NCBI GenBank assembly: GCA_003050565.1
Contig: PEBW01000004.1
Location: 1 to 64,000, forward strand
DNA: 64,000 nt
Source: Brockia lithotrophica
GTDB lineage: Bacteria > Bacillota > Bacilli > Thermicanales > DSM-22653
Direction of reading: 5' to 3'
The notes beneath the pieces were generated by a model. That model had not been told where the DNA came from and ran no database searches. It was given only the letters and a program-made list of their open reading frames with translations. Each line of letters starts with the position of its first letter. The first letter of the stretch is position 1. Shown piece by piece: positions 22,953-30,234 of the stretch. Both the position numbers and the translations under genes were made by a program.

Positions 22953-24434
22953 TTGGCGAACAACACGTCGCTCGCCGTACCCATCTCACGGAACTACGAG
23001 GAAGCGGTAAAGGTCCTCAAGGAGCGACTCGGAGTAGGCAAGTCCTTTGACATTGGCATGCGCGAGCTCGTGATCGGCGGCCGCCGCGTGGCGATCTTTT
23101 TCGTAAACGGCCTCGCCGACAACGGAATGCTCGCCATCCTCCTCAAGGACACCGCGCGCCTGAGCCTCGAGGTCGAGGGGAGGCTTTCTCCGGACGAAGT
23201 CTTCCACCTCCTCTTTTCCCACTACCTCAGCCACGTTCAGGTGGAGCCCATACGCACGTACGACGAGTTCGTCGACCGGGTGCTCACCGGCCTCTTCGGG
23301 TTCGTGATCGAAGGGGTAGGGGAGGGGATCCTCCTCGACGGGCGGATGTACCCGGGGCGGACGCCCCAGGAGCCCGACACGGAGCGCGTCGTCCGCGGTT
23401 CCCGCGACGGGTTTACGGAAAACATCATCGTGAACACGGCGCTTTTGCGGCGCCGCCTGCGGGACGAAAAGTTGCGCGTGGAAATCCGCCGCGTGGGCGA
23501 ACGAAGCAAGTCCGACGTGGCGATCGCCTATTTGGAAGATGTGGCCAACCCCGGCCTCGTCGACTTCGTCCGTCGCCGGATCGACGGGGTGCAGGTCGAC
23601 GGGATTCCGATGACGGATAAGTCCCTTCAGGAATACATCATCGGTCAATCGTGGAATCCCTACCCCCTCGTACGCTACACGGAGCGTCCGGACGTGGCGG
23701 TACAGCACCTCCTCGAAGGGCACGTCCTCATCATCTTCGACACATCGCCGAGCGTGATGATCACACCGACGACCTTCTTCCACCACGTACAGCACGCCGA
23801 AGAGTACCGCCAAACCCCCGTCGTGGGCATGTACCTCCGGTGGGTGCGCTTTTTCGGGATCTTCACCTCCGTGTTTTTCCTCCCCCTGTGGTTCCTCTAC
23901 GCCACCCACCCCTGGCTCGTCCCGCCGGGGCTCGAGATGATAGGCGTGGAGAAGCCCACGGACGTGCCGCTCTTTGCGCAAATCCTCATCGCAGAACTCT
24001 TCATCGACCTCATGCGCATGGCCGCAATTCACACGCCCACCCCCCTTGCCACCGCCCTGGGCATTCTCGCGACGATCATCCTCGGTGACGCGGCGACCAA
24101 GGCCGGGCTTTTCGTCCCGGAAATCGTCCTATACATCGCCGTGGCGGCCATCGGCCTCTTCGCCACGCCGAGTTACGAGATGTCCCTCGCAAATCGGCTC
24201 ATGCGCCTCTTTCTCCTCTTCGCCGTCGCCCTCTTCGGCGCCCCAGGACTCGTCGTGGGGACGACGCTCATCCTCCTCTCCCTCGTGTTTACCTACTCCC
24301 TCAACACGCCCTACTTTTGGCCCCTCATCCCCTTCAACGCCCTCGGATTTTTCCACGTCCTCTTCCGCATGCCCGTCCCCCTGGAGCGGAAGCGTGCCGT
24401 GATCACCCAGCCCATGGACCCGACGCGAAAGTAA
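22953..24434 (+). CDS. spoVAF: Stage V sporulation protein AF (GerA-type family)
   Basis: A 493-residue protein with a soluble N-terminal half and about five membrane helices in the C-terminal half (from about residue 300), the layout of the GerAA/SpoVAF family. Known motifs include PRRID-like DGVQVDGIPM and the ENIIVNTALLRRRLRD segment. SpoVAF is linked to the spore DPA channel and germination. TTG 22953 follows GGGAGGGG. It is the only spoVA-type gene in the window; in Bacillus it ends the spoVA operon. Confidence 0.92.
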   Translation: MANNTSLAVPISRNYEEAVKVLKERLGVGKSFDIGMRELVIGGRRVAIFFVNGLADNGMLAILLKDTARLSLEVEGRLSPDEVFHLLFSHYLSHVQVEPIRTYDEFVDRVLTGLFGFVIEGVGEGILLDGRMYPGRTPQEPDTERVVRGSRDGFTENIIVNTALLRRRLRDEKLRVEIRRVGERSKSDVAIAYLEDVANPGLVDFVRRRIDGVQVDGIPMTDKSLQEYIIGQSWNPYPLVRYTERPDVAVQHLLEGHVLIIFDTSPSVMITPTTFFHHVQHAEEYRQTPVVGMYLRWVRFFGIFTSVFFLPLWFLYATHPWLVPPGLEMIGVEKPTDVPLFAQILIAELFIDLMRMAAIHTPTPLATALGILATIILGDAATKAGLFVPEIVLYIAVAAIGLFATPSYEMSLANRLMRLFLLFAVALFGAPGLVVGTTLILLSLVFTYSLNTPYFWPLIPFNALGFFHVLFRMPVPLERKRAVITQPMDPTRK

Positions 24435-24487: not shown

Positions 24488-24563
24488 TTTCGGTCGCGAC
24501 CGAGGGATTTTTGTCTTGCCCGGTAAGAACGGGGAGGGACGCCCGTTCTTTCTGAGACCGAAA
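24488..24563. terminator. Nested hairpins after spoVAF
   Basis: An outer arm ATTTCGGTC (about 24488) has its complement GACCGAAAT (about 24555). Inside lie a 12-bp palindrome CGGTCGCGACCG and a hairpin with a 9-bp stem AAGAACGGG (24525-24533) / CCCGTTCTT (24542-24550). The T-tract after it is weak. It probably ends spoVAF transcription, but the nesting is more complex than a simple terminator. Confidence 0.5.
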
Positions 24564-24613
24564 TATTCGCATATCTCAAGGAAACTCGTTTTGTGGATTT
24601 TTCCGGATTTGTC

Positions 24614-24643
24614 TTGACGCTCACGCGGAGGATTTCCTATACT
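24614..24643 (+). promoter_or_regulatory. Sigma-A-type promoter for the 24.7-27.8 kb cluster
   Basis: TTGACG (24614-24619) and TATACT (24638-24643) are 18 bases apart, one of the best promoters in the window. It lies 26 bases before the GTG at 24670. Confidence 0.78.
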
Positions 24644-24669
24644 AGCCAACGGGAAAGGGGGTGAGAACC

Positions 24670-25131
24670 GTGGTCGAACGCACGCTTTTGCCCTGGGAAC
24701 GGGTAGGCCGCATGGCCCTATTGCTCTTCGTCTTTGGTGCGCTTTCGTTTCTGATCCTCTACATCCTCATCATGACGTTTTCCGTCCTCTGGGCCGTGAC
24801 GGGGCAGGATCTGAGCGCCTTTGTCCACATGGAACGCGATGCGACGGGGATCGAATTTCGGGCGACTCCGCTCCTCGTGGTCATCGCCTTGGCGCTTTCC
24901 GGTGCCCTCACGTACGCGGCCGCCCGCACGTACGACGGCCGCTCGCGGCGCTTGCGCGCCGGGTGGTTCGTCCTCGTGCTCGCCGTAGCCGTCATCGTCG
25001 CCTTATTCGGATACATCGCACCGTGCGGGATCGTATGCCCCTCTCTCACCTGCCACGGCCCCGTGGTAAGCTGTTCGACGGAATTCCTCCTCAAGTCGCT
25101 TTCTGTGAAGTACGTCTGCCTCTGCCGGTGA
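24670..25131 (+). CDS. Small membrane protein with Cys-rich C-terminal tail
   Basis: Not recognised. The 153-residue product has three predicted membrane helices (about 15-40, 66-84, 97-117), a charged loop, and a tail of about 37 residues with six cysteines spaced C-x3-C-x4-C-x6-C and a final CLC. This tail could bind metal, form disulfides outside the cell, or be a processed peptide; none is shown. I chose GTG 24670 with GGGGGTG upstream over GTG 24661. It is first behind a strong promoter, ahead of a metalloprotease and ABC genes, though a terminator-like hairpin follows it. Confidence 0.65.
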   Translation: MVERTLLPWERVGRMALLLFVFGALSFLILYILIMTFSVLWAVTGQDLSAFVHMERDATGIEFRATPLLVVIALALSGALTYAAARTYDGRSRRLRAGWFVLVLAVAVIVALFGYIAPCGIVCPSLTCHGPVVSCSTEFLLKSLSVKYVCLCR

Positions 25132-25204
25132 GGTATGTCTCGCCCAAGGGCATAAGGGCGCTCGGACGGTTCGGGGGACCACTCCGGGGTTGGGCAGAGG
25201 ACGG

Positions 25205-25255
25205 CCGATGGGGCGGGGGAGCGCACTTCCCACGCTCCATCGGTTGCTTTGTTTC
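25205..25255 (+). terminator. Terminator or attenuator after the Cys-rich membrane gene
   Basis: CCGATGGGGCG (25205-25215) pairs with CGCTCCATCGG (25233-25243), 11 bp with one G-T pair, followed by TTGCTTTGTTTCT. A second perfect 8-bp stem, TGCGGGCC (25270-25277) / GGCCCGCA (25295-25302), follows. Together they could limit read-through into the next genes. Confidence 0.6.
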
Positions 25256-25386
25256 TCGCCCGAGGGAAGTGCGGGCCAACTTGTTTCCGTTTCCGGCCCG
25301 CAGGGATACTCTCATTCCCGGAGCGCTATTGGCCATACAACTCGCCGTCCGCTTTAACCTGCGCGCTCGCGATTGGGGGGAAACCG

Positions 25387-25812
25387 ATGGGCTTTTGGGC
25401 GTTTACGAAGCGCGTGGTCGTCCTCCTCGCGCCCCTCGCGGGACTCGTGTTCGGCATCGCCGCCCTGGGTGTAGCGGCGTTTCGTGCGGTACCGTGCGTC
25501 CTCTCGCGTCCGGAATTCTACATACTTCTCCTCTTTTTCCCGTTTCTCCTCGTCTACCTGCACGAATTGGGCCACTACCTTCCCGTACGCCGTAGGGTAC
25601 GTGGGGTCGTACGGGAGGGAATCTTCGGCGTAGCCGTGGAAATCGAAGGCGACGTCCCCTGGAGTGCGGTGGTTTGGAGCGCCGTTCTTCCCCTCGTGTT
25701 TGGTCTCGGGGTGACTTTGTGGACGGGGAAGGGCGTTTTCTTGCTCCTCACCTTGGGCGTTCTGGCGGCGTCGGCCTTGGACGGTGTGGAGGTGCTACGG
25801 CGGCATGCTTGA
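25387..25812 (+). CDS. Minimal M50-like (site-2-protease-type) membrane metalloprotease
   Basis: A 141-residue membrane protein with a zinc motif H59-E60-L61-G62-H63 inside or at the end of the second helix and an LDG motif (131-133) in the last helix. HExxH plus LDG is the active-site pair of M50/site-2 proteases, here in a very short form. About four helices are predicted. It overlaps the ABC ATPase gene by 8 bp, so the two are coupled. In yydHIJ-type clusters an M50 protease with ABC genes processes and exports a peptide; a like role here is inference. ATG 25387 follows GGGGGG. Confidence 0.68.
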   Translation: MGFWAFTKRVVVLLAPLAGLVFGIAALGVAAFRAVPCVLSRPEFYILLLFFPFLLVYLHELGHYLPVRRRVRGVVREGIFGVAVEIEGDVPWSAVVWSAVLPLVFGLGVTLWTGKGVFLLLTLGVLAASALDGVEVLRRHA

Positions 25813-26464
25813 AGTTCGCGACCTCGTGGCGGGGTACCGCAGAGCTCCGGTGGTAGGCCCGCTCTCCTTCTCCCTCGAGCGCGGGGAAGTTCTCATCTTT
25901 GTCGGACCAAACGGGGCGGGGAAGTCCACCCTCTTCCGTACGCTCGCCACCCTCCAGAAACCGCTCGCCGGCAAGGTATTTCTCGACGGCGATCCGCTCG
26001 AACGAAAGGCGGACCGGGTATTTTTTTTGGGCGAACGGGTGGAGATGCCGGAAAGCCTGACGGGTGCGGAGTACCTCCGGGTGGTTTCCTCCCTCTACGG
26101 AGAAACCGCCGATCCCGAACCCTACCTTCGGTACGCGGGGGTGCCGGCAGAGGCGCTTCTGCGTCACCTCTCCCAGGGGCAAAGGCGGCGCGTTCAGCTC
26201 GCGAGCGCCCTCTTCGTGTCTCGGCCCCTCGTCTACCTCCTCGACGATCCTTCCATCGGCCTCGACGACGTCGGTGCGGAAGAGCTCGTACCCGACCTCG
26301 TACGCCGCCTCAAGGAGGCGGGCAAGGTCACCCTCGTTGCCACGCGGGTGGCGGCGCTCGTCGAACGCCTTCGCCCCTTCGCCGCGATCGTCGACATGCG
26401 GAAAATAAGCCGCGTCCTCCCCGATACCGCGGCCCTTCCGACGTTAGAAAAGCCCGAGAAGTGA
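25805..26464 (+). CDS. ABC transporter ATP-binding protein with altered catalytic motifs
   Basis: A 219-residue ATPase with Walker A GPNGAGKST, signature LSQGQRRR and Walker B YLLDD. The residue after the Walker B Asp, normally the catalytic Glu, is Asp, and the switch His (normally in a TH pair) is replaced, seen as VATRVAA. ATP binding should be kept but hydrolysis may be slow or need a partner. ATG 25805 follows GGAGGTG and overlaps the protease gene; a permease gene follows 87 bp later. Confidence 0.88.
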   Translation: MLEVRDLVAGYRRAPVVGPLSFSLERGEVLIFVGPNGAGKSTLFRTLATLQKPLAGKVFLDGDPLERKADRVFFLGERVEMPESLTGAEYLRVVSSLYGETADPEPYLRYAGVPAEALLRHLSQGQRRRVQLASALFVSRPLVYLLDDPSIGLDDVGAEELVPDLVRRLKEAGKVTLVATRVAALVERLRPFAAIVDMRKISRVLPDTAALPTLEKPEK

Positions 26465-26551
26465 GGTGAAATTCCCGAGGAGATTGTCGGTTCGCGGGGA
26501 CGAATTTCGGCAAACGAGTTTTCCGAGTTCCGCTCGAGGAGGGGGCACTTC

Positions 26552-27763
26552 GTGCCGTTTGTGTACCTTTCGAGGATTTGGTTTCGCCTCATCGTCCGCC
26601 GTCCCAGTACGTGGGTTTTCCTTTTCTTTAGCGCCGTCCTCGGTTGGCTCATTTACGAGGCGCAACCCGTTCTCTCCCTCATCCCCGTTCGTTCGCTCCT
26701 TCCGTCCTTCGTCCTCGTCTTTTTGGCTTTGGGGTGGATGCACGCGCGGGCGTTTGATCCGCGAACGGCGCTCGCCCTTTCGGAAATCCCCGGGTTTTTC
26801 TCCGCCCGGCTCAGGCTCACGCTTCTTCAGCTGTTCGCCTTCCTTCCGTTTTGGATTGCCCTCGCCGTTTCGTTTCCGAATCCGTGGCTTCCCATCCTCC
26901 TCTCGTTTCTCCTCTACCTGCCGTTTACAGAGCTGCCCTTGAGTTGGACGGGGATCCTCATCGCCGCCGCCGTTCTCGCTTTCGTCGCCCCCGTCGGCCT
27001 TCTACCTCTCGCCCTTGGCCTCCTCTTTTTGCTCTGGGAACGGCTCATTCCGTCGAAGCGGGTGTTCTTGCTCCGCACGAATTCCCTTGCCGTTACCTGG
27101 GTGAATCCGCTTTTTTTCTGGCCCGTAGGGGTCATCTGGGTGTTGGTGTGGTGGGCCGCGCGTTTCCCGGGTGTTGAGATTTCCGTTTGGGGGCTCTCGG
27201 GAAGAAGCCTAATGGTTTTTTCGCCGGATGGTGCGGACTCTGTCGAACAGTTCGAATTCGGGGTTTTCCTCGCGGGGCTTGCGCATTCTTCGGTTACCTT
27301 GATTCTCCCCCTCTTTTTGAGCGTTTCGGCCGTCGGGTACCGCTACCTCGAACGCCCGCTCTGGCCGCTCTTCTGGCTCGGCCGCGCCTACCGCCGTACG
27401 ATTCCGGCGGCCTTCGCCCTGACGTTTGCCTATACGCTCCTCTGGACGGCCCTTACCTACGGATGGTTTTCGTACCTGGGCGTGTTCCAAGATCCCGTGC
27501 TTTCTTATGCCGTGCATTTAACGGCGCTCGCGCTCTTCGTCGCCTCCCTTTGGCCGTTCTCCCCCGACGATCCGCAGAACCTCGGATCGTTCGTTTTTGG
27601 GGTATTTTTTGTACACTTTTCTGTACTTTTGCTCCTCTTTCGGCTTCTTCCGGCCGTCGGAGTGTCCCTATCTCCTTCCGCCTTTGCGGCGGTTGCACTT
27701 CTTTTCGCCCTTTTCATTCCTTGGATCTGGTACCGCCTCAAACGTGCGGGGATTATTTCGTAA
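26552..27763 (+). CDS. Polytopic membrane protein, probable ABC permease
   Basis: A 403-residue, very hydrophobic protein with about 10-12 helices and few charged loops; no family is recognised by eye. Its place after the ABC ATPase and the size suggest the membrane half of the same transporter. One outside loop of about 50 residues (around 205-255) is more polar. GTG 26552 follows GAGGAGGGGG. No terminator is clear at its end. Confidence 0.72.
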   Translation: MPFVYLSRIWFRLIVRRPSTWVFLFFSAVLGWLIYEAQPVLSLIPVRSLLPSFVLVFLALGWMHARAFDPRTALALSEIPGFFSARLRLTLLQLFAFLPFWIALAVSFPNPWLPILLSFLLYLPFTELPLSWTGILIAAAVLAFVAPVGLLPLALGLLFLLWERLIPSKRVFLLRTNSLAVTWVNPLFFWPVGVIWVLVWWAARFPGVEISVWGLSGRSLMVFSPDGADSVEQFEFGVFLAGLAHSSVTLILPLFLSVSAVGYRYLERPLWPLFWLGRAYRRTIPAAFALTFAYTLLWTALTYGWFSYLGVFQDPVLSYAVHLTALALFVASLWPFSPDDPQNLGSFVFGVFFVHFSVLLLLFRLLPAVGVSLSPSAFAAVALLFALFIPWIWYRLKRAGIIS

Positions 27764-27890
27764 GCCACACGTCCCAAGGTGATGTCCGTGCTTTCCTTTT
27801 CCCTGGCCCCGGTCCGACGTAAAGACGGATGCCCGCGGGTTTCATGGGGTTGCCGCCACGCGAGCTCAAAACCGGGGGAGTGATTTCTCC

Positions 27891-28505
27891 GTGGAAGGGT
27901 CGACCAAGCAGTACTTTGAAGAACGGGCCGAAGGTTGGGACGCGAACATCCGCCCGGAAACCCGCGAACGCTTGGCCCGGATCGTACGAGATCTCGGTAT
28001 ACGACCCGGGAGCCACGTATTGGACGTGGGTAGCGGCACGGGAGTTTTGATCCCCCTCCTCTTGGAGGCCGTGGGACCGAACGGAAAAGTGACGGCCTTT
28101 GATTTGGCCGAAAAGATGCTTGCTCTTGCCGAGGAGAAGTACGGAGGTGGAAGGGTGGAGTTCGTCCAAGGGGATATCGCAAATGCTCCTTTTCCGGAAG
28201 GGACTTTCGACGAAGTTGTATGCAACTCCAGTTTTCCTCACTTCGAAGATCGGGCGCGAGCGGTGAGGGAGATGTTTCGGATTATAAAACCCGGCGGGCG
28301 AGTGGCGGTCTTCCACCCGATGAGCCGAGAAGCGGTCAACGAATTGCACCGCAGCTTGGGCGGCGTCGTGCGGGATCACCTTTTGCCCGAGGACGAGGAA
28401 ATGCGCCGCCTCTTTCGGGACGCCGGATTTGCGGAGATAGAAGTCGCCGACCGGCCCGACCTTTACCTGGTCACGGCCCGCAAACCCAGGAACGGCGGCT
28501 CATAG
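27891..28505 (+). CDS. Class I SAM-dependent methyltransferase
   Basis: The 204-residue product has the SAM-binding motif VLDVGSGTG, an acidic DLAEKM second motif and the FDEVVCNSSFPHF post-motif of the Methyltransf_11/25 group. The substrate is unknown; small-molecule or quinone-type substrates are common in this group. GTG 27891 follows GGGGAG. The 127-bp gap before it is not clearly structured. Confidence 0.85.
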   Translation: MEGSTKQYFEERAEGWDANIRPETRERLARIVRDLGIRPGSHVLDVGSGTGVLIPLLLEAVGPNGKVTAFDLAEKMLALAEEKYGGGRVEFVQGDIANAPFPEGTFDEVVCNSSFPHFEDRARAVREMFRIIKPGGRVAVFHPMSREAVNELHRSLGGVVRDHLLPEDEEMRRLFRDAGFAEIEVADRPDLYLVTARKPRNGGS

Positions 28506-28848
28506 AGGCTCTTTGGTACGACGAGGAGGCTTTACGGTGAAGCCAGGCGGGCGATAGCTTCTTCTAGCTCGTTGCGCATGGGAAGTAGGATGGCGTGGCA
28601 TCGCAACCGGGGCTTTGGTATGCTTAAAAAGATAAACCCGCAGCGCGGAGGCGTGCGGGCGAACCTTGCGGGACTGTGGGCATGCTCTGTACGGCCGTAG
28701 CCGGAGGCGAGAACTTCCTCGGAACGGGCGTTCCGCGGTAGAGTCGGGGAAGGACGGCAGCGGCAAGGCGAGAAGGAGTCCAAGCCCAACCGAAACGACG
28801 ACGGTTGGGATAAGACGAAAGTTGCATACGGAGCGGGGAGGGGCGGCC
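28506..28848 (+). other. 343-bp gap before lysA with a possible leader hairpin
   Basis: No credible gene is seen. CCCAACCG (28785-28792) and CGGTTGGG (28802-28809) form a perfect 8-bp stem 40 bases before lysA, with no T-run. I looked for lysine-riboswitch core motifs and did not find them. The region must contain the lysA promoter, but no clear one is visible. Confidence 0.4.
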
Positions 28849-30234
28849 GTGCGGAGATTTCCCGTGGAGCTCGAGGTACGCGACGGAGTTCTTCACTTCG
28901 GCGGAGTGAGCGCCGTCGAGCTGGCCGAGAGGTTCGGCACGCCGCTCCTCGTCTACGAAGAGGACAAAATCCGTCGGGCGATGCGCGAGTTTCCCGAAAC
29001 CCTGTCCGGATTAGGTGTACGCTACCGCCTCTTTTACGCCTGCAAGGCGTACTGCAGCTTGGCCATGGCCCACGTCGTCCGGGAAGAAGGCTTTGGGGCG
29101 GACGTCGTCTCCCTGGGGGAAATGGTGACGGCGCTTCGCGGGGGCATTCCGCCGGAAGACCTGCTCTTTCACGGAAACTTCAAGCCGGACGAGGAGCTGC
29201 GCTTTGCCGTAGAGCAGGGAATCGGGACGATCGTCGTCGACAACGCCTACGAGCTCGAACGCCTTGCCAGCCTCGTGGCCTCGCAGGCCGGACGCCGCCC
29301 CGTGGACATCCTCCTCCGGGTTACTCCCGGCGTGGTGGCCCACACCCACCGCTACATCCTCACGGGACAAGAGGATTCGAAGTTCGGCTTCGACCTCGAG
29401 AGCGGACAGGCTCTCGCCGCCATCCGGAAGGCGATGCGCACGGAGGGCCTGCGGCTGCGCGGGATCCACATGCACGTGGGCTCGCAGCTCGTGTCTCCGG
29501 ACGGAGTGGTGGAGGCGGTGCGCCGCCTCGAAACCCTCCTCACGTCTGCTCCGGAATTCGTCCCGGAGGTCCTCGACTTGGGCGGAGGATTCGGCGTGCC
29601 GTACGTCGTCGACGATCCTCACGTCCCCCTGCGCGATCTCCTCGTACCGGTAGTCGAGGCCGTACGCGCCCTCTTCTCCCGCCTCGGGTACCCGGAGCCG
29701 GAGTTTTGGTGGGAGCCCGGGCGGCGCGTCGTCGGCTCCGCGGGAACGACCCTCTACCGGGTGGGCGGCGTAAAGGAAATCCCCGGAATCCGCCGTTACG
29801 TGGCCGTAGACGGGGGGATGAACGACAACATACGTCCGGCCCTCTACCAGGCACAGTACGAGGCGCTCCTCGCCAACCGTCCCCTCGATCCCCCGGAGGC
29901 GCTGTACACCGTGGCGGGGCGGTTGTGCGAGAGCGGCGACATCCTCATCGTCGACCATCCCCTTCCCCATCCCCGTCCGGGAGACCTCCTGGCCGTTTTT
30001 GTCACGGGTGCGTACGCCTACGCGATGTCTTCCAACTACAACCGTCTGCCGCGCCCGGCGGTCGTGTTCGTTCGCGACGGGAAGGCGCGGCTCGTCCAAC
30101 GACGGGAGACGCTCGAGGACTTGCTCGCCCTCGACCTTCCCTACGGTTACGAGGACTGCGCAAACGGGCCCGCGGGCGATCCGGATGCGGGAGCGCGTGG
30201 AGCGCTCGAAGCGCGTGGCGTACAGGAAGCGTGA
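28849..30234 (+). CDS. lysA: Diaminopimelate decarboxylase
   Basis: Last step of lysine synthesis: meso-diaminopimelate to L-lysine, PLP-dependent. PLP Lys is in FYACKAYC, the glycine-rich phosphate site in LDLGGGFG, and the Cys from the partner subunit in GRLCESGD. The 461-residue product is slightly longer than usual owing to a C-terminal tail. lysA follows spoVAF in Bacillus too; here 4.4 kb separates them. GTG 28849 follows GGGGAGGGG. Confidence 0.94.
   Translation: MRRFPVELEVRDGVLHFGGVSAVELAERFGTPLLVYEEDKIRRAMREFPETLSGLGVRYRLFYACKAYCSLAMAHVVREEGFGADVVSLGEMVTALRGGIPPEDLLFHGNFKPDEELRFAVEQGIGTIVVDNAYELERLASLVASQAGRRPVDILLRVTPGVVAHTHRYILTGQEDSKFGFDLESGQALAAIRKAMRTEGLRLRGIHMHVGSQLVSPDGVVEAVRRLETLLTSAPEFVPEVLDLGGGFGVPYVVDDPHVPLRDLLVPVVEAVRALFSRLGYPEPEFWWEPGRRVVGSAGTTLYRVGGVKEIPGIRRYVAVDGGMNDNIRPALYQAQYEALLANRPLDPPEALYTVAGRLCESGDILIVDHPLPHPRPGDLLAVFVTGAYAYAMSSNYNRLPRPAVVFVRDGKARLVQRRETLEDLLALDLPYGYEDCANGPAGDPDAGARGALEARGVQEA

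Follow-up and report, generated by a model that had tools for sequence, protein, structure and literature searches.

A gene cluster inserted between spoVAF and lysA in Brockia lithotrophica encodes a degenerate ABC ATPase and a putative minimal M50-like membrane protein

What separates two genes that lie side by side in related bacteria, and do the products of the intervening genes work together? We consider this question for a 64,000-nucleotide stretch of Brockia lithotrophica DNA (contig PEBW01000004.1 of assembly GCA_003050565.1, positions 1 to 64,000 of the forward strand; the window hereafter), in which four plus-strand coding genes (g1, g2, g3 and g4) and then a methyltransferase gene stand between spoVAF and lysA. 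The GerA-family gene spoVAF (22953..24434, plus strand; Pfam GerA, E=1.3e-147) forms the left border, and lysA, encoding diaminopimelate decarboxylase (28666..30234, plus strand; Pfam Orn_Arg_deC_N, E=1e-55), forms the right border. An earlier note on this DNA held that the two border genes are normally adjacent. Indeed, in two genomes of the same family (G002 and G004) and one of the same order (G005), lysA directly follows spoVAF; the ends of the two matches are about 130-285 bp apart, and this gap contains no match to g1-g4, to marC or to the methyltransferase gene. The g1-g4 cluster is thus an insertion, which also takes in the methyltransferase gene and, in the sister species G001, marC. 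We tentatively propose, at somewhat less than even confidence, that g2-g4 form an ATP-binding cassette (ABC) membrane module, acquired by or born in the genus, in which g2 would be a minimal zinc protease and the substrate a peptide.

The entire g1-g4 cluster is found at the same location in the sister species. Amino-acid identity between the two species is 84% for g1, 94% for g2, 94% for g3 and 85% for g4, with spoVAF at 97%, and the ratios of nonsynonymous to synonymous substitution rates (dN/dS) are 0.28, 0.19, 0.12 and 0.31 for g1 to g4, compared with 0.04-0.05 for sigF and spoVAF. These low ratios indicate that the four genes described in the earlier note, all of which are present, are real translated genes under purifying selection, with a constraint weaker than that on core genes. 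The six cysteines of g1, the HELGH and LDG motifs of g2 and the altered ATPase residues of g3 are identical in both species.

Among the genomes examined, the cluster appears specific to the genus. Both of the two species of the genus carry it, g4 is present in none of 59 other relatives in the class, and the 398 sampled Bacillota genomes contain no match to g4, no credible relative of g2 and only generic ABC matches to g3 (best 92 bits, against a self-score of 485). Relatives of g1 were not found outside the genus in the genomes searched. Scans of genome contigs with g2 and part of g3, the latter limited to two patterns, returned no orthologs; plasmids gave no match to g1, g2 or g4 and weak generic ABC matches to g3 (34-39% identity); phages searched with g2, and viral contigs searched with g3 and g4, gave none. 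Two candidate relatives were discarded as chance: a g2 match of borderline significance (E=8.9e-4) in G249, where no small HExxH membrane reading frame occurs, and a match to the g1 cysteine tail in G030 (63% over about 30 residues, E 0.45) that misses most cysteines and contains a stop. These absences are statements on sampled genomes. Co-occurrence of the genes, on which the earlier note had placed weight, therefore extends to two species and was not found beyond the genus, which leaves two sequences per protein and correspondingly weak profiles and structure predictions.

The firmest assignment is that of g3 (25805..26464, plus strand; 219 amino acids), which its sequence certainly marks as a bona fide ABC ATPase (Pfam ABC_tran, E=1.3e-20) with intact Walker A and LSQGQ signature motifs. 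The degeneracy claimed for it is confirmed by alignment at two catalytic positions. The Walker B motif reads LDDP, with Asp-Asp at residues 147-148 (26243..26248, plus strand) and Asp in place of the catalytic Glu, and the H-loop, VATR, has Arg in place of His at residue 181 (26345..26347, plus strand). Both canonical residues are kept in six of six canonical bacterial ATPases from other genomes aligned with g3. ABC domains with degenerate catalytic sites are already known, and g3 is a variant of the family, not a non-member. The operon has no ATPase other than g3, so a g3 homodimer would be altered at each of its two sites, pointing to slow or switch-like turnover.

The closest solved relative of g3 is 1sgw, described as a 'putative ABC transporter' (117 bits, E=1e-32; the next structure scores 85 bits), which is about 37% identical and shares both replacements: the two proteins have in common LSQGxxRRVQLAS, LDDP and Arg for the H-loop His. 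This double replacement suggests that the two belong to an uncharacterised ABC ATPase subclass, for which a structure is solved and we found no reported partner or function. We take 1sgw to be a Pyrococcus furiosus protein, probably PF0895. The loci PF0891-PF0894 encode the subunits of soluble hydrogenase I (PMC3200332), and no relation of 1sgw or g3 to hydrogenase is established. An apparent mention of PF0895 in an encapsulin paper was set aside, as it appears to be the Pfam accession PF08957 and not the gene.

The gene upstream of g3, g2 (25387..25812, plus strand, start ATG 25387), encodes the 141-residue HExxH...LDG protein of the earlier note and does overlap the ATPase gene, by 8 nt. Four helices are predicted (residues 2-38, 42-64, 92-113 and 117-140). 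The HELGH motif occupies residues 59-63 (25561..25575, plus strand) and the LDG motif residues 131-133 (25777..25785, plus strand), with D132 as candidate third zinc ligand. Judged by the predicted helices and the charge distribution, both motifs would lie near the cytoplasmic ends of two helices. This is compatible with SpoIVFB-type M50 proteases, in which the motifs are placed near the cytoplasmic face, and g2 resembles these M50B proteins in having HExxH at a helix end and LDG in a later helix. It differs from them in spacing, with 72 residues between HELGH and LDG where almost every SpoIVFB-like protein in the comparison has 92-94 and one (L120) has 88, and in lacking extended similarity. 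A SpoIVFB-like M50 profile aligns to g2 with an hhalign probability of 80% over 19 residues only, and a forced global alignment places LDG on LDG. The main site-2 protease of the B. lithotrophica genome is not g2, since other, clear M50 genes are present there.

The third member of the group, g4 (26552..27763, plus strand), encodes a polytopic protein of 403 amino acids with many hydrophobic segments and is presumed to be an ABC permease. Its size, together with the effect of Ecs on intramembrane proteolysis, led us to test it against EcsB; Ecs inactivation in Bacillus subtilis is reported to inhibit intramembrane proteolysis (PMC2996298). An EcsB identity was rejected, as g4 reaches an hhalign probability of 0.3%, the same value as its reversed sequence, against 95% for the divergent EcsB of G002. 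EcsB (PF05975) itself has no match in either genome of this genus (G000, G001) or in G004; it is very divergent in G002 and clear in G003 and G005.

The arrangement of these genes on one strand, with the 8-nt overlap of g2 and g3 and g4 starting 87 nt after g3, has the structure of an operon. In the mechanism that we tentatively favour, this small operon, inserted at the spoVAF-lysA junction, would have been acquired by the genus or born in it. Its products would make up an ABC-type membrane complex, with g3 as the ATPase dimer, g4 as the membrane part and g2 as an associated protein, a minimal intramembrane zinc protein built along M50-like lines. g2 would cut, or would once have cut, a membrane-embedded peptide, and g3 and g4 would extract or export the product through slow, switch-like ATP turnover, as neither site of a g3 homodimer would have a catalytic Glu or an H-loop His. 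The joining of g3 and g4 in a single transporter, the protease activity of g2 and the peptide nature of the substrate are our inference. A precedent for this kind of function is offered by epipeptide systems, in which M50 proteases encoded beside ABC genes act on peptides (PMC7026026; PMC10885120). By analogy, this supports the kind of function and not membership, since the epimerase and the precursor are absent here. Were g2 active as a protease and coupled to the ABC pair, few intramembrane zinc proteases would be smaller, and the module would provide a compact model linking ATPases with intramembrane proteolysis.

Several observations weigh against this proposal. The Pfam M50 model (PF02163) matches g2 at E=1.4 in the HELGH region, and the score of g2 against the SpoIVFB-like profile, reached by 0 of 200 full shuffles, is attained by 18 of 200 when the residues around HELGH are left in place, so that this match reflects the motif alone. 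Within the (N)xxPxxxLDG pattern of the M50 family, g2 has the LDG and leaves the N and P positions unmatched. Homology of g2 to M50 is thus possible on the grounds of motif and topology, with the similarity stopping at the zinc motif; the M50-like label given in the earlier note agrees with motif and topology, and no significant profile similarity was found for it. AlphaFold models built from the two-sequence alignments have a mean predicted local distance difference test score (pLDDT) of 56 for g2, too low in confidence to judge a zinc site, and of 44 for g4, and fold searches with these low-confidence models returned no match for either protein. The permease role of g4 is assumed because of its position and hydrophobicity; it has no detectable relatives, with no family match in Pfam, NCBIfam, PHROGs or PADLOC and no solved relative found. 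Finally, no precursor peptide for g2-g4 is evident except g1, which may be transcriptionally separate.

The first gene, g1 (24670..25131, plus strand), encodes a protein of 153 amino acids with three predicted transmembrane segments. GTG 24670 is likelier to be its start than the listed GTG 24661, because the latter falls within the ribosome-binding site GGGGGTG. Six cysteines lie within the last 35 residues, as the earlier note described, and all six are kept in the sister species. This C-terminal tail is predicted to lie outside the membrane on account of the charges of the R-rich N-terminus and the RTYDGRSRRLR loop. dN/dS is 0.20 in the tail and 0.43 in the preceding transmembrane segment. 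The last 16 codons and the stop (25081-25131) are identical in nucleotides between the two species, synonymous sites included.

The strong promoter reported ahead of g1 is the sole promoter recognised for the cluster. It is sigma-A-like (TTGACG-18-TATACT, 24614..24643, plus strand), matches the consensus at 10 of 12 positions with 0.4 such matches expected by chance, and keeps its position and spacing in the sister species (TTGACG-18-TATGTT, 9 of 12). Upstream of it, a noncoding block of 75 nt (24546..24620, plus strand) is nearly identical in the sister species, in contrast to the diverged noncoding DNA on either side. The block carries the dyads TGAGA...TCTCA and CGAA...TTCG, and is possibly an operator or other regulatory site. 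Downstream of g1, a hairpin of 20 pairs with a U-rich tail (25202..25246, plus strand; 25202-25257 in its wider extent) is conserved between the window, where its folding z is -3.45, and the sister species, where it is -4.64, and has no Rfam match; it may terminate or attenuate the g1 transcript. With this hairpin behind it, g1 may lie outside the g2-g4 operon; 5' of g2 no promoter was recognised. The link of g1 to g2-g4 is positional only, and g1 is a separately promoted neighbour. Just downstream of the hairpin, the sister species is longer by about 220 bp. The interval from g1 to g2 was also examined for a small precursor gene, and none is convincing; indels in the sister species disrupt the reading frame at 25190-25357.

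Alternatives to the peptide-processing module differ mainly in what they assign to g2. It is possible, and only a little less likely than that module, that g2-g4 encode an ABC transporter of the ordinary kind, which would carry a lipid, a metal or a small molecule, with g2 as a small accessory membrane subunit whose HELGH is incidental or structural. The resemblance of g3 to generic CcmA-like exporter ATPases in the family scan is consistent with such a transporter, as are the confinement of the M50 signal of g2 to the motif and the empty fold search with its low-confidence model. However, HELGH and LDG are both kept in the sister species and are positioned like M50 ligands, and their joint occurrence by chance in a single protein of 141 residues is unlikely. 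A regulatory module resembling EcsAB and RasP, in which g3 and g4 control the protease activity of g2 instead of transporting its product, would account for a degenerate ATPase suited to a slow switch; it would also recall the inhibition of intramembrane proteolysis on Ecs inactivation in B. subtilis (PMC2996298) and could fill the place of EcsB, which was not found in G000 or G001 and is present in several other genomes. EcsA-EcsB is indeed similar to g3-g4 in pairing an ATPase with a permease of about 400 residues. Yet EcsB is not detectably related to g4, as the control comparison above indicates, the EcsA proteins seen keep the canonical residues, and G004 is without EcsB and without g4, so that the absence of EcsB is no sign of replacement. 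We regard this regulatory explanation as unlikely. Another idea, which we consider very unlikely, is that g2-g4 act as an intramembrane protease gated by ATP. Here a minimal four-helix zinc protease would be kept in place by a permease-like protein unrelated to it and by a doubly degenerate ABC ATPase, and its cleavage would be controlled by nucleotide binding and not by transport; the similar ATPase 1sgw would then hint at a wider occurrence.

The earlier note had likened the set to yydHIJ and had raised the cysteine tail of g1 as a candidate substrate. A system of this yydFGHIJ style, related to ribosomally synthesised and post-translationally modified peptides, would have g2 release the six-cysteine tail and g3-g4 provide export or immunity. 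The likeness to YydH/EpeP-YydI-YydJ of the B. subtilis epipeptide system holds in gene content, a membrane zinc-protease-like gene beside genes for an ABC ATPase and a membrane protein; no homology was shown, and no direct comparison of the proteins was made. The invariance of the six cysteines in two species and the lower dN/dS of the tail would also agree with a processed peptide, although disulfide formation or metal binding explains the cysteines equally well. Against it, g1 is a three-transmembrane protein and no leader-core precursor, and the conserved hairpin separates it from g2-g4. As the earlier note stated, no radical SAM (S-adenosylmethionine) epimerase or short precursor is recognised in the gene content of the spoVAF-lysA interval, nor is any other recognised peptide-modifying enzyme nearby, except the unassigned methyltransferase. 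No link between the g1 tail and g2 was found, and we consider a system of this kind improbable. The least likely of the functions weighed here, a role in sporulation, was suggested by the sigF-spoVAF neighbourhood and is favoured by location alone, which is not in itself evidence. g1 has its own sigma-A-like promoter, relatives with the same sporulation genes have no cluster, and a pattern scan, which is not decisive, found no SigE, SigF, SigG, SigH or SigK consensus ahead of g1 or g2, in the window or in the sister species.

Further features flank the cluster. Behind spoVAF, itself 97% identical in the sister species, lies a terminator-like hairpin with a T-run (24488..24513, plus strand), a scan match at 24488-24505 followed by GATTTTTGTC; this candidate is weak because the number of such matches is not above chance. 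Behind g4 lie remnants of marC (27779..27820, plus strand), about 25 nt from the beginning of the gene and 20 nt from its end, and in the sister species the gene is intact between g4 and the methyltransferase gene (L003:7805-8449). Comparison of the remaining ends with the intact gene indicates that marC was lost by internal deletion in the lineage of the window. The methyltransferase gene (27891..28505, plus strand) encodes a class I SAM-dependent enzyme (Pfam Methyltransf_11, E=8e-25). The true start of lysA is probably later than 28666, and alignment to relatives begins only at residue 44-74. Third-position G+C is 0.80 in g1, 0.73 in g2, 0.77 in g3, 0.70 in g4 and 0.67 in the methyltransferase gene, compared with 0.80-0.85 in sigF, spoVAF and lysA, a mild signal that would fit a foreign or fast-drifting stretch from g2 to the methyltransferase gene.

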